Shown one piece after another: positions 37,653 to 58,288 of a DNA stretch of 64,000 nucleotides. The position numbers were made by a program, and so were the translations under genes. The notes under the pieces were generated by a model that ran no database searches, was not told where the DNA came from, and was given only the letters and a program-made list of their open reading frames with translations. Position 1 is the stretch's first letter; each line of letters opens with the position of its first letter. Source of the stretch: Rhodanobacter sp. B04 (GTDB taxonomy: Bacteria; Pseudomonadota; Gammaproteobacteria; Xanthomonadales; Rhodanobacteraceae); NCBI RefSeq assembly GCF_002001125.1, contig NZ_MUNV01000006.1:372001-436000 (forward strand), read 5' to 3'.

Positions 37653-38230
37653 GCTGCAACTCCGGTCCGGGCCTCGAGCGCGCCGCGAAGGCGCAGTCGT
37701 GAGCGGAACAAGTGGCTCTTGATGGTGCCGCTGGCCAGCCCGGTGATCCGGGCAATCTCGGGTATCGTGATTTCTTCAAGGTAATACAGCGTCAGCACGG
37801 TCCGCTGCAAGGGCGGCAGCGCCTCGATGGCGGCGTGCAGGTGCTGCGTCGTTTCCGCGTCGGCACAGGCGGCTTCGAGGTCGAAGCCATCGCCGATGTT
37901 TTCCACCAGCGCATAGTCGTCGCCGTCCTCGGTGTTCTCCAGCAGCGGGATGCGCTTGTGCTGCAGGTGGCGCAGCGCGATCGTGTAGGCCACGCGCCCG
38001 ATCCACGATTTCAGCGCGCTCTCGTAGCGATACTGGTGCAGGCACTGGTGCACGCGCAGAAAGGTGTCCTGGCACAGCTCCCGTGCGTCCTCGGGGTGGC
38101 GCACCATGCGATGGATGATGTGCCAGCACAGGCCCTGATACTCGCGGACCAGGCGCTCGAACGCGCCCGGCCGGTTGGCCAGCACGGCATCGACCAGTTC
38201 GCGGTCCGGGCTGTTGGGGATGTCTTCCAT
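37649..38230 (-). CDS. ECF-type RNA polymerase sigma factor
   Basis: 193 residues. Sigma region 2 (AFERLVREYQGLCWHIIHRMVRHPEDARELCQDTFLRVH, about 22-60) and region 4 (LPPLQRTVLTLYYLEEITIPEIARITGLASGTIKSHLFRSR, about 135-177) with the helix-turn-helix. The ATG at 38230 is the first ATG; a TTG at 38281 would add 17 residues without family support. It overlaps the anti-sigma gene downstream by four bases. Divergent from a small membrane protein gene. Confidence 0.92.
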   Translation of the reverse strand: MEDIPNSPDRELVDAVLANRPGAFERLVREYQGLCWHIIHRMVRHPEDARELCQDTFLRVHQCLHQYRYESALKSWIGRVAYTIALRHLQHKRIPLLENTEDGDDYALVENIGDGFDLEAACADAETTQHLHAAIEALPPLQRTVLTLYYLEEITIPEIARITGLASGTIKSHLFRSRLRLRGALEARTGVAA

Positions 38231-53503: not shown

Positions 53504-54172
53504 ATGACCAAGCAATCCCCGATCATCGCCCCGTCCATCCTCGCCGCCGATTTTGCGCGACTGGGCGAAGACACTGCCGCGGCACTGGCCGCCGGCGCCG
53601 ACTGGGTGCATTTCGACGTGATGGACAACCATTACGTGCCGAACCTCACGATCGGCCCGATGGTGTTGCAGTCGCTGCGCGGGTATGGCATCACTGCGCC
53701 GATCGACGTGCACCTGATGGTCAAGCCGGTCGACCGCATCGTGCCGGACTTCGCCAAGGCCGGCGCCAGCCTGATCAGCTTCCATCCGGAAGCGAGCGAG
53801 CACATCGACCGCACGCTCGGCTTGATCAAGGAATCGGGCTGCCAGGCCGGGCTGGTGTTCAACCCGGCCACGCCGCTGGATTACCTCGACTACGTGATGG
53901 ACAAGCTCGACTTGATCTTGATCATGTCGGTCAACCCCGGCTTCGGCGGCCAGAAATTCATCCCCGGCGCCCTGGAGAAGCTGCGCCAGGCGCGCCAGCG
54001 CATCGAGGCCAGCGGCCGCGCGATCCGGCTGGAAGTGGACGGCGGCGTCACCGCCGACAACATCGGTGCGATCGCCGCGGCTGGCGCCGACACCTTCGTT
54101 GCCGGTTCGGCGATCTTCCACGCCAAGGATTACCGCGCCGAGATCGCCGCGATGCGCAAGGCGATCGCTTGA
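53504..54172 (+). CDS. rpe: Ribulose-phosphate 3-epimerase
   Basis: Interconverts ribulose 5-phosphate and xylulose 5-phosphate. 222-residue TIM barrel. Markers: [41 protein letters not shown]-type [28 protein letters not shown] and [14 protein letters not shown] with the metal and phosphate ligands. The ATG at 53504 is the conserved start. Its neighbourhood, with trpE downstream, is the classic rpe-trp arrangement although a 0.8-kb region and a two-component system lie between. Confidence 0.97.
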
Positions 54173-54219
54173 GCGTTCCTGCCGCCTTGTGCCAGGCGAT
54201 CGGCTGAGCGTCATGCATA

Positions 54220-54251
54220 AAAATCCCGGCGCATGGAATGGATGCGCCGGG
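54220..54251 (-). terminator. Intrinsic terminator of the minus-strand RNA
   Basis: Perfect 10-bp stem CCCGGCGCAT / ATGCGCCGGG with a 7-base loop; read on the minus strand it is followed by ATTTTTATG. On the plus strand the stem is preceded by A residues and followed by ACAAACG, so it is oriented to stop leftward transcription. It begins about 50 bases beyond the rpe stop. Confidence 0.85.
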
Positions 54252-54470
54252 ACAAACGTCGTCGGATGACGTGAGAGGAAACACTGTTGACTGGTGTGCC
54301 GTTGATTGGTGTGTGCCGACACGGCCGCATCGGAGGGAGGGGTCGCGGCCGTATCGGCACATTCCACGGCAATGGAACGGGCACCAATCGGTAACTCTGA
54401 CCGGGACGATCCGGTTTGGTTCCGGGAAAATTTCTGAACGCGCTGAATCGGCGGGTCGCCCCGATTCAGG
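54220..54470 (-). ncRNA. Candidate structured small RNA with C-rich loop
   Basis: On the minus strand this stretch folds as follows, 5' to 3'. (a) A perfect 9-bp hairpin, CTGAATCGG / CCGATTCAG (54461-54469 / 54443-54451). (b) A nested hairpin, ACCAA...TTGGT around ACCGG/CCGGT (about 54385-54420). (c) A 5-bp hairpin, TTCCA/TGGAA. (d) A 16-bp hairpin (54313-54360) with loop GACCCCTCCCTCCGAT. (e) A tandem 15-nt repeat, CACACCAATCAACGG then CACACCAGTCAACAG (54284-54313). (f) An intrinsic terminator. The only non-Watson-Crick pair in the 16-bp stem is G-U on the minus strand but a C-A mismatch on the plus strand, which supports minus-strand transcription. The C-rich loop could pair with Shine-Dalgarno sequences. 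No convincing ORF. The promoter is not identified. Confidence 0.6.
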
Positions 54471-54473
54471 TTC

Positions 54474-54498
54474 AAAAAAATCCCCTCGCAAGGAGGGG
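54474..54498 (-). terminator. Intrinsic terminator of the micro-ORF operon
   Basis: Read leftward: CCCCTC, loop CTTGC, GAGGGG, then ATTTTTTT. It lies 44 bases after the stop of the 38-residue peptide and separates that unit from the downstream RNA candidate. Confidence 0.85.
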
Positions 54499-54541
54499 AA
54501 AGTAACCACCATGTCGGACGGAATGCGGGTGCGGTGGGGCG

Positions 54542-54658
54542 TTACACGGGCTGCCAGTCCGGGTCAGGATCTTCCTGGCCCGCGTCCGGCGCGATTCCCT
54601 TCGCGCCGGACGCACCCATGCCTTCCACGGCTGAAAGCTTGAAGATGTTCGTGTGCAT
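54542..54658 (-). CDS. 38-residue acidic peptide
   Basis: The predicted peptide begins MHTNIFKLSAVEGMG and ends EDPDPDWQPV, net acidic, with a Gly/Ala-rich middle and no Cys. High G/C third positions fit the host. It starts 15 bases after the upstream micro-ORF stop, with GGAATCGG as a modest ribosome-binding site, and ends before an intrinsic terminator. A perfect 13-bp inverted repeat (54582-54613) lies inside, so the region could instead be a structured RNA. Function unknown; a secreted or modified peptide is only speculation. Confidence 0.45.
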   Translation of the reverse strand: MHTNIFKLSAVEGMGASGAKGIAPDAGQEDPDPDWQPV

Positions 54659-56272: not shown

Positions 56273-58288
56273 ATGACCCTGCGCCGCAAGCTGTTGCTGG
56301 TGGCCTTGTGCACGTTGGCATTGCCGGTGGCGGGCTGGCTTTACGTGCGGCAGATGGAAACCCTGCTGCGCGAGGGGCAGGCGCAGGCCTTGCTGGCGTC
56401 GGCGCGTGCGGTGGCGCGCAGCCTGGTGGTGACCGATGCGGTCGTGTCGGGACAGGGCAAGGGCTGGTATGTGCAGCAGACGCCGGACCCGATCACGGTG
56501 GACGGCTATGGTGACGACTGGGCGCCATTGACGCCGTGGAGCCAGCCGCTGGAGCAGCGCGGCCGCCTGCTGCTCGCCGAGGACGATGCCGGCCTGTACC
56601 TGTATGCCGATGTGCCGGATACCCGGCGTACCCGGGCCGATACCGAGGATGCCAATGCACTGGCAGCCGATCACCTGATTCTCTCGCTCGGCAATGCCTC
56701 CGGTCAGCGCCGATACCTGCTGGCCAGCGCCGCACCGGGGCCGCTGACGGCGCGCCCGCTCGATCCGGTGGTGGAGGGCTTGCCCGACCTGATCACGGCG
56801 CAGTGGCAGGAGGATGGCAGCGGCTACCGGGTCGAGCTGCGCCTGTCGCGCAACCTGTCGCTGCGCACGCTCGGGGTGGGCGTATATGACGCCCATGCCG
56901 GCGGCGATCCGATGGCGGCCGACACGCGCCCGTTGCTGCGCTTCTCCGGCACGCTTTCCGAGGAGTTGGCAAGGCTTGCGCCCGACCAGGTACAGGCGCG
57001 CGTGTTGTCGCCGCAAGGCTGGCTGCTGGCGCGCAGTGGCCGCCTCAATACGCTGCCCGGCAGTGATGGCCAGCCGGGCTGGTTCGCTTCCCTGATCTAT
57101 CGTTCGCTGCTGGCGACCCGGCTGGAAGATGCCAACCTGTGGGCGCAGGACGTGCCGCGCCTGGATACCCGCGAGGTCACTACGGCGAGTACCGGCAAGC
57201 CGGTCAGCGTCTGGCGCAACGGCGAGGAGCGCGGCAGCGTGGTACTGGCTGCCGCGGTGCCGATCGAGCGTGCTGGCCAGGTCGATGGGGTGCTGCTGCT
57301 GGAGCAGGCCAGCCGCATCGTGCCGCTGCTGGCCAACCGCGCACTGCTCGGCCTGCTGCTGACCAGCTTCGGCGTGCTGCTGGTTGCGGGCGGTATCCTG
57401 CTGGCGTTCGCCACCCGGCTCAGCCTGCGTCTGGGTCGCCTGCGCAACGCAGCCGAACGCGCGCAGCTCAACGATGGACGTCTGGACGGCCTGTTCGAGC
57501 AGGGCCGCTTTCCGATGACCGATGCCACCGACGAGATCGGCGACCTGGCGCGCAGCTTCGAGCGCCTGTTCGAGGTGGTCGGCGGCTACACCGACTACCT
57601 GCGCACGCTGGCCTCGAAACTCTCGCACGAGCTCAACACGCCGCTGGCCATCGTCAAATCCTCGTTGGACAACCTCGAGCACGCGACGCTCCCCGCCGAG
57701 GCGCAGCCGTACCTGGCGCGTGCCCGCGACGGCGTGGCGCGACTCGGCGCGCTGGTGCGCGCGATGAGCGAGTCGAGCCGGATGGAACGCTCGATCACGG
57801 CGGCGGAACCGGAAGACGTCGACCTGCGCGACGTGGTGCGTGGCTGCGCGGATGCGTACCGTCCGCTGATCGGCCAGCGCCAACTCGAGTGCGTGCTGCC
57901 CGAGCTGCCGCTGCATCTGCATTGCGCGCCGGAGCTGATCGCGCAGGCGCTGGACAAGCTGCTCGACAACGCGCTGTCGTTCACGCCGGAGCATGGCTGG
58001 TTGCGGCTGAGCCTGCGGGTGGCCGATGCCGGCGCCGAGATCGAGCTGGCCAACCAGGGGCCGCTGCTGCCCGAAGCGATGCAGGGTCGGCTGTTCGATT
58101 CACTGGTCAGCCTGCGCGACAAGGCCACACCGGGCGATGCGCCGCATCTGGGTCTGGGCCTGTACGTGGTGCGGCTGGTGGCCGAGCGCCACGGCGGCGT
58201 GGCGTCGGCCCGCAACCTCGACGATGGCAGCGGCGTGGCCTTCAGCCTGCAGCTGCACGGCATGCCACGGCAGCGATTGAGTGGCTGA
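56273..58288 (+). CDS. pdsS: Sensor histidine kinase, PdsS type, with CBM9-like periplasmic domain
   Basis: 671 residues. Membrane helix 1 (about 7-26); large periplasmic region (27-350) whose first half (ITVDGYGDDWAPLTPW ... GLYLYADVPD) resembles CBM9-type carbohydrate-binding folds; membrane helix 2 (about 352-375); HAMP-like linker; DHp box KLSHELNTPLAIVKSS with phospho-acceptor His452; ATPase domain with DKLLDNALSF (N box) and GLGLYVVRLV (G2 box). This matches the TIGR03785-type kinases of dedicated sortase systems. Last gene of its operon, 57 bases before trpE. Confidence 0.88.
   Translation: MTLRRKLLLVALCTLALPVAGWLYVRQMETLLREGQAQALLASARAVARSLVVTDAVVSGQGKGWYVQQTPDPITVDGYGDDWAPLTPWSQPLEQRGRLLLAEDDAGLYLYADVPDTRRTRADTEDANALAADHLILSLGNASGQRRYLLASAAPGPLTARPLDPVVEGLPDLITAQWQEDGSGYRVELRLSRNLSLRTLGVGVYDAHAGGDPMAADTRPLLRFSGTLSEELARLAPDQVQARVLSPQGWLLARSGRLNTLPGSDGQPGWFASLIYRSLLATRLEDANLWAQDVPRLDTREVTTASTGKPVSVWRNGEERGSVVLAAAVPIERAGQVDGVLLLEQASRIVPLLANRALLGLLLTSFGVLLVAGGILLAFATRLSLRLGRLRNAAERAQLNDGRLDGLFEQGRFPMTDATDEIGDLARSFERLFEVVGGYTDYLRTLASKLSHELNTPLAIVKSSLDNLEHATLPAEAQPYLARARDGVARLGALVRAMSESSRMERSITAAEPEDVDLRDVVRGCADAYRPLIGQRQLECVLPELPLHLHCAPELIAQALDKLLDNALSFTPEHGWLRLSLRVADAGAEIELANQGPLLPEAMQGRLFDSLVSLRDKATPGDAPHLGLGLYVVRLVAERHGGVASARNLDDGSGVAFSLQLHGMPRQRLSG

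Follow-up and report, generated by a model that had tools for sequence, protein, structure and literature searches.

A structured minus-strand RNA beside rpe in Rhodanobacter, probably a new family of small RNAs behind an ECF-type promoter motif

The gap between rpe and a response-regulator gene that points away from it in Rhodanobacter sp. B04 contains a stretch (54220-54470) in which an earlier note had described a structured minus-strand RNA with its own terminator. The question is whether a separate RNA gene lies there, where it would begin and end, and on what it might act. Positions are those of the window, the 64,000-nt stretch of contig NZ_MUNV01000006.1 that was analysed. The neighbouring genes, the predicted RNA and its parts are as follows.

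53504-54172, plus strand: rpe (TIGR01163, 310.3 bits), convergent neighbour of the RNA
from 54970, plus strand: response-regulator gene (TIGR03787, cut-off 335.7, score 363.4 bits)
54396-54423, minus strand: GGAACC-N16-GTCAGA, conserved motif, putative promoter of the ECF (RpoE-like) type
54217-54389, minus strand: predicted sRNA, 173 nt, the conserved unit and match of RNA model R1 in the own genome
54383-54389, minus strand: 5' arm of P1, GATTGGT, closing a multi-branch domain; double changes at 7/7 P1 pairs
54361-54378, minus strand: P2, GTTCCATTGCCGTGGAAT with the near-invariant UUGCCGUGGA, conserved in sequence
54313-54360, minus strand: P3, 16-bp stem with a C-rich loop; double changes at 13/13 model pairs
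54304-54310, minus strand: 3' arm of P1, ACCAATC, with a private second copy, ACCAGTC, at 54295-54289
54284-54313, minus strand: tandem 15-nt repeat, CACACCAATCAACGG / CACACCAGTCAACAG
54275-54287, minus strand: candidate seed ACAGUGUUUCCUC, unpaired in the folds and in the consensus
54256-54272, minus strand: P4, small hairpin ACGTC..GACGT; 84.9% of cells paired, double changes at 2/5 pairs
54223-54253, minus strand: stem of the intrinsic terminator, followed by a T-run to 54217; 97.6% of cells paired

TIGR03787 describes the response regulator of the proteobacterial dedicated sortase system. Beyond this gene, a histidine kinase (56273-58288, plus strand) was nearest to TIGR03785, the kinase of the same type of system, at 464.2 bits, which is below the cut-off of 612.2.

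Fold, strand and extent of the RNA

The stretch 54220-54470 folded on the minus strand with z = -7.0, and the RNA trimmed to 54389-54217 gave -83.3 kcal/mol (z = -7.5); in neither case was any of 200 shuffled sequences as good. In the consensus, the closing stem P1 encloses P2 and P3 and is followed by an unpaired UGGUG-YUCCUC stretch, P4 and the terminator. The P3 arms GTGCCGATACGGCCGC (54360-54345) and GCGGCCGTGTCGGCAC (54328-54313) form 16 bp around the loop GACCCCTCCCTCCGAT (54344-54329, minus strand), so the 16-bp stem with a 16-nt C-rich loop reported earlier is present, and its lone irregularity is a U-G pair. Neither of the two consensus pairs of P2 showed double changes, and at minimum energy the RNA of the own genome pairs the P2 stretch differently.

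Compensatory changes were sought in two alignments. A1, in which 45 sequences from DNA-search matches were aligned with MAFFT, was not fitted to the RNA model, and had double changes at 24 of 37 pairs. A3 is family-wide, with 88 loci and 87 distinct sequences; in this alignment, whose fitting to the RNA model favours structure, 94.1% of cells were paired, double-sided changes occurred at 28 of 37 pairs, and the covariation score was 0.334 compared with 0.150 for shuffled alignments (0/500 as high) and at most 0.060 when the partners were slid. Three weak loci (L159, at 33.4 bits, L160 and L161) were excluded from A3, the matches in G417, G304 and G408, of the genus with a 100-nt form, lie outside it, and L039, L040, L045 and L047 were swapped for longer stretches of the same four genomes. 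Compensatory changes and conservation of the loop had been proposed earlier as the check on this RNA; the stems bear the first out, and the second was borne out by half, as described below.

Read as minus-strand RNA, A3 contained 202 G-U or U-G cells and 58 A-C or C-A cells, and the RNA strand is therefore the minus strand, since the opposite asymmetry would be expected for the plus strand. P4 taken singly ran opposite to the whole RNA in this test (9 G-U and 25 A-C cells). The terminator has a GC-rich stem, in which we counted 12 pairs where 10 bp had been claimed, and it is followed by TTTTTAT on the same strand. These results bear on the view that there is no separate gene and that the hairpins are the 3' end of the plus-strand rpe message or leftover inverted repeats. 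The plus strand folds well too (z = -5.0), as any inverted repeat must, and the convergent rpe adjoins the RNA in 84 of 88 A3 loci, with its end at a median distance of 40 nt. Against this, the wobble excess, the T-run and the promoter motif all belong to the minus strand, and the RNA was kept in the 4 of 88 loci with no rpe within 900 nt downstream; we regard this explanation as very improbable. Less credible still is that a minus-strand coding frame accounts for the conservation. A frame of 697 codons from TTG (54475-52382) is open through the RNA, and the promoter site lies inside an open frame of 548 codons; the longer frame is antisense to rpe, the A1 sequences are 125 to 173 nt long and differ by gaps whose lengths are not divisible by three, and conservation tracks the stems and the unpaired motifs. 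The open frame over the promoter, likewise antisense to rpe, was taken as spurious. Covariation, wobble asymmetry and the conserved promoter motif thus uphold the earlier description, and a structured minus-strand RNA with its own terminator is strongly supported by these sequence comparisons.

The earlier extent did not hold. In A1 the conserved region opens with GGAACC, and the ECF-type promoter layout is followed by GATTGG, which begins 12 nt past the start of GTC in 38 of 45 A1 sequences (an automatic count requiring the exact string), as would suit a transcription start. We therefore place the predicted RNA between about 54389, at GATTGG, and 54217, after TTTTTAT. This gives about 173 nt instead of a transcript of about 250 nt over 54220-54470. 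The match of model R1 in the own genome (C24:426217-426389, minus strand) corresponds to window 54217-54389, and it was the single match in that genome from the RNA model and from the DNA search alike. The hairpins noted earlier do exist in the sequence, but the one formed by TGAATCGG and CCGATTCA (54468-54444, minus strand) lies upstream of the conserved promoter motif, outside the conserved unit. Similarly, the two copies of the tandem repeat are identical at 13 of 15 positions, as had been stated, but the repeat is not part of the conserved RNA: it was found in only 1 of 45 A1 sequences, that of the own genome, where it doubles the 3' arm of P1 and alters the seed.

Distribution, promoter motif and conserved parts

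The DNA search found matches in 47 of 120 genomes, the own genome included. Among 398 genomes of the order, the RNA model had matches in 72, every one of them belonging to the family of the window itself, and model R2, run on 369 genomes of the class, matched the own genome and two others (33.0 and 30.6 bits), the order and class searches having used stricter Infernal filters with which weak copies may be missed. The two weak class-level matches, both without UUGCCGUGGA and the promoter, were set aside. Named records with the strict core pattern (24 stretches) were from Rhodanobacter species, one Dyella record and MAGs. These calculations show that, in the genomes searched, the RNA is restricted to one family.

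GGAACC-N16/17-GTC was present in all 45 A1 sequences (spacing 16 in 41, 17 in 4), and GGAACC-N15-18-GTC occurred within 60 nt upstream of the RNA in 86 of 88 A3 loci (spacing 16 in 81, 17 in 5); it was absent from those 60 nt in L153 and L157. The promoter is not part of the RNA model, which begins with the transcript. Of the A3 loci, 47 came from the model search and 4 of these repeat genomes of the first set; the motif was found in 41 of the 43 genomes newly added. For the sigma-E promoters of rybB and micA, PMC1804206 gives GGAACTTTT and GTCAAA, with which the present motifs agree. A sigma-E-type promoter is thus present as a motif directly before the RNA.

A single RpoE of the own genome clears the curated cut-off, at 322.5 bits; ten other ECF-like matches score lower. 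GAACTT and GTCTGA stand upstream of its rpoE gene at a spacing equal to that of the sRNA promoter. A genome-wide search for GAACY-N16/17-GTCWGA gave 5 matches, namely that of rpoE, which lies outside any long open frame, that of this RNA and three in open frames of 346-823 codons. Strict promoter patterns showed no genome-wide excess over the reversed control (8 matches against 23, and 5 against 8), and in one promoter-pattern search 10 of 11 matches were the sRNA loci themselves. From the motif, we infer that the sRNA is under RpoE (sigma-E) control. Among the weaker ECF-like genes is one at 37694-38212 (minus strand), with 82.6 bits to TIGR02939, below the cut-off of 236.15.

Within the RNA, UUGCCGUGGA is the most conserved internal part, with GCCGTGGA in 84 of the 87 distinct A3 sequences. 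One could envisage that the RNA is driven by another ECF sigma factor and binds a protein through the UUGCCGUGGA hairpin, and does not act by base pairing. The conservation of UUGCCGUGGA, the ten further ECF-like matches below the RpoE cut-off and the failure of the strict promoter patterns to reveal an RpoE regulon would fit this explanation; the RNA has two GGA triplets in 173 nt, so it is no usual CsrA/RsmA sponge, and none of the other ECF-like loci scanned in the own genome has a GGAAC..GTC promoter. We consider it rather unlikely.

The unpaired stretch has a YUCCY-type (YTCCY) core in 80 of the 87 sequences and keeps TGGTG or GTGGT in 77, of which 44 have no CACC in the preceding 45 nt as a pairing partner, which speaks for an outside partner of the UGGUG stretch. 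In the genus, the candidate seed takes the form AUGGUGUYUCCUC; its exact complement is GAGGARACACCAU, which, if a G follows, reads as a Shine-Dalgarno sequence, a spacer and AUG.

The earlier note had laid its emphasis on the C-rich loop, and this emphasis is justified within the genus but not beyond it. By a count from alignment columns with a loose pattern, the window's genus had the loop in 39 of its 41 sequences, other genera in 21 of 46. Genus g14 (11 A3 loci, e.g. L142-L148) has a short RNA of about 100 nt; these forms lack P3 and the C-rich loop and keep the promoter, UUGCCGUGGA, CUCCUC, P4 and the terminator. Since the loop is nearly universal in one genus, patchy elsewhere and missing in g14, it appears to be a part gained or lost by lineages. 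It could nevertheless be argued that the CCCUCCC loop is the active part, pairing with G-rich ribosome-binding sites, and that the rest is scaffold. In favour of this are its near-universal presence in the genus and the precedent of sX13, which, according to PMC3771888, needs its own C-rich loops and G-rich target motifs. Its patchiness in other genera, and the 100-nt forms that do without it while keeping the promoter, UUGCCGUGGA and CUCCUC, argue against it. We hold such a loop-centred regulator to be unlikely, if the least unlikely of the alternatives considered.

Fold, strand, terminator, promoter motif, family restriction and the conservation of UUGCCGUGGA and the unpaired YUCCUC are calculated results. 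We infer from them transcription, RpoE as the sigma factor, action in trans and UGGUG-YUCCUC as the seed; a translational regulator with an anti-Shine-Dalgarno element is the most reasonable reading of the locus. An explanation to which we give somewhat better than an even chance is that the RNA is an envelope-stress sRNA, transcribed by RpoE, that masks the Shine-Dalgarno sequence and start codon of other messages. Under envelope stress, RpoE would transcribe the sRNA leftward from the ECF-type promoter, the UGGUG-YUCCUC seed would pair in trans with the Shine-Dalgarno sequence and start codon of target messages, and translation of these would be blocked at the masked ribosome-binding sites. 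The C-rich loop of Rhodanobacter might then be a second anti-Shine-Dalgarno contact with which other lineages dispense, and, if this is true, such a loop can come and go around a family-wide RNA core.

Candidate targets and the upstream element

The seed complement GACGTGAGAGGAAAC, with up to 3 mismatches, gave 40 matches in the own genome and 46 in the reversed control, and this approach was rejected. The sole exact match was the sRNA's own locus. Eight other matches were inspected, none of which was an evident leader, and three of the GAAGTGAGAGAAA type were low-complexity repeats. At three own-genome loci (L186, L195 and L208), intergenic low-complexity repeats rich in GTGAGGAGAGAGGAGTGAG were seen, with inverted copies nearby.

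Shorter strings before ATG were searched in 41 genomes. The own-genome match of GAGAGGAAA translates to a 34-codon frame. With AGGGAGGG, seven own and six other sites were read among the matches listed; there the leader AGGGAGGGTGCAG recurred, which precedes rplN in all three genomes read, and a second recurrent leader preceded a PsiF-like gene in two genomes (both named by eye). The rplN leader was rejected as a candidate: its string also occurs in G005 and G016, in which the RNA was not found, and recurrent AGGGAGGG leaders in such genomes speak against the C-rich loop as the active part. Sigma-E-dependent trans-acting sRNAs repress messages for outer-membrane proteins by base pairing; here, exact GAGGAAACACCATG was found upstream of TonB-receptor-like frames in no genomes but G001 and G007. 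In a search of 44 Rhodanobacter genomes with 1 mismatch, GAGGARACACCATG had 5 matches in the own genome and 0 in the reversed control among the matches listed, which proves little because the reversed control is no ribosome-binding site. Exact GAGGARACACCATG preceded the TonB-receptor-like frames of G001 and G007, an esterase-like frame in the own genome and in G042, a ferredoxin-like frame in G037 and a pilin in G032 (these frames, like the TonB-receptor-like ones, were named by eye). The exact sites at TonB-receptor-, esterase- and ferredoxin-like frames and at the pilin are single or few cases.

pilA recurred with GAGGAACCACCATG: 16 of 25 sites fetched begin a type IV pilin and 9 other frames, as judged by eye. 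The genus-form seed had looked better against pilA, 8 of 254 start windows being as strong, for a gene that had been chosen for its match. When the sRNA-pilA duplex was ranked against the same 254 start windows (taken from the window and from 15 20-kb stretches of the own genome, with starts guessed by a simple rule), it was ordinary, with a median rank of 0.15, a place in the top 5% in 2 of 19 genomes and a rank of 0.55 in the own genome. pilA is the best target lead, yet we do not claim it as a target. The type IV pilin leader itself, GGTTAGCTAACC..AGAGGAACCACCATGAA, hardly varies among the Rhodanobacter genomes in which it was read (L316, L330, L322 and 16/25 of L334-L358).

Upstream of the RNA, on the same strand, lie two further features.

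54474-54513, minus strand: separate upstream element CATGGTGGTTACTTTCCCCTCC with its own terminator; CATGGTGGTT in 17/21 loci
54542-54658, minus strand: small frame of 38 codons, ending ..DPDWQPV; a hairpin with the loop AAGGGAA overlaps it

The element consists of CATGGTGGTT, A or C, and CTTTCCCC, followed by the terminator. In 8 of 21 Rhodanobacter loci, which do not include that of the own genome, the element has the full CATGGTGGTTCCT, complementary at all 13 nt to AGGAACCACCATG at the pilA ribosome-binding site. Against the background windows, pairing of the element with pilA was among the best 5% in 5 of 11 genomes and ranked 0.059 in the own genome. The 38-codon frame is followed by CATGGTGGTTACTTTCCCC and the terminator (54658-54474, minus strand). 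A DPDWQP-like end of the frame is kept in 19 of 21 Rhodanobacter loci although the stop codons differ, which suggests a real peptide; the frame matched no Pfam or NCBIfam family, and outside the genus it is often closed just before its core. A frame of 39 codons farther upstream (54793-54674, minus strand), with one membrane stretch by eye (MSKIESTERDPNAELRSFEPLRVTLALGALLLGLILGMH), also had no Pfam or NCBIfam match, and a similar frame occurs in the upstream sequence of other genera.

The motif order of the upstream element resembles that of the sRNA. In 30 of 52 loci, a full-length secondary R2 match on the same strand ended between 1 and 130 nt upstream of the RNA; 11 of 52 had one downstream within 130 nt, and 1 lay on the opposite strand. 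All were weak (best 26.3 bits), and the idea of tandem paralogues drawn from them is suggestive only. On this idea, the locus would encode two related RNAs, a downstream envelope-stress sRNA and an upstream dual-function RNA with a 38-residue peptide and, before its terminator, an antisense to the pilA ribosome-binding site and start codon, which together would couple envelope stress to pilus production. We regard such a pair as improbable, and lowered our already small estimate slightly because the full 13-nt antisense occurs in 8 of 21 loci and not in most. Our preferred reading remains the single envelope-stress sRNA.

Comparison with known RNAs

In an Rfam scan of the window at the gathering threshold, no family matched at the RNA, in agreement with the earlier note, which had recognised none. 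The sole match was an SAH riboswitch elsewhere (RF01057, 44322-44398, minus strand, 39.7 bits against a cut-off of 37). The nearest Rfam families are anti-hemB and ar14, and both fail the cut-off. Like anti-hemB (Burkholderia RNA 7, RF02837), the RNA has a hairpin with the loop CCUCCCU and, after it, a CCCGGCG terminator, and 5 of 20 loci had sub-threshold matches of 24.5-30.5 bits at the RNA. The cut-off of 49.5 was missed in the window (29.7 bits) and in the 20 relatives' loci (at most 30.5), and the match skips 48 nt and omits P1 and P2. ar14 (RF02344), of the C-rich sRNAs of alphaproteobacteria, likewise shares a C-rich loop and a terminator, at 22 bits in the window and 28.9 in L102 against a cut-off of 58.8. 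Cuckoo RNAs have twin hairpins, whereas the present RNA has one C-rich hairpin.

CsrB/RsmY-type sponges carry several GGA motifs in hairpin loops; one of the two GGA triplets here lies in the terminator. By rule of thumb, the T-run of TTTTTAT is short for an Hfq-dependent sRNA.

The likeness to sX13 of Xanthomonas consists in a strong structure, a C-rich loop suited to G-rich ribosome-binding sites and occurrence in the same order. According to PMC3771888, sX13 is a neighbour of polA and has three stems, whose apical loops are 4C/5C, whereas the present RNA lies at rpe and has one C-rich loop; moreover, all of its 72 matches in the order are in another family than that of Xanthomonas.

Envelope-stress sRNAs are well studied in enterobacteria; none was found described for Rhodanobacteraceae in the literature searched, and no earlier description of this RNA was found in that search, which lay mostly outside subscription journals. 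A covarying RNA that is single-copy in its own genome and stands behind an rpoE-type promoter motif offers a starting point from which stress control in Rhodanobacter can be tested. The RNA shares with MicA and RybB, the sigma-E-dependent sRNAs of enterobacteria, GGAAC and GTC in a -35/-10 layout, a conserved intergenic place and an intrinsic terminator (PMC1804206). It had no sequence match to either through the Rfam models. MicA and RybB are about 70-80 nt long in E. coli according to the same paper, compared with 100-173 nt here, and, unlike theirs, the candidate seed is internal, before the terminator, within a multi-branch fold. Based on these comparisons, we conclude that the RNA probably represents a new family, a structured and trans-acting sRNA behind an ECF-type promoter motif.
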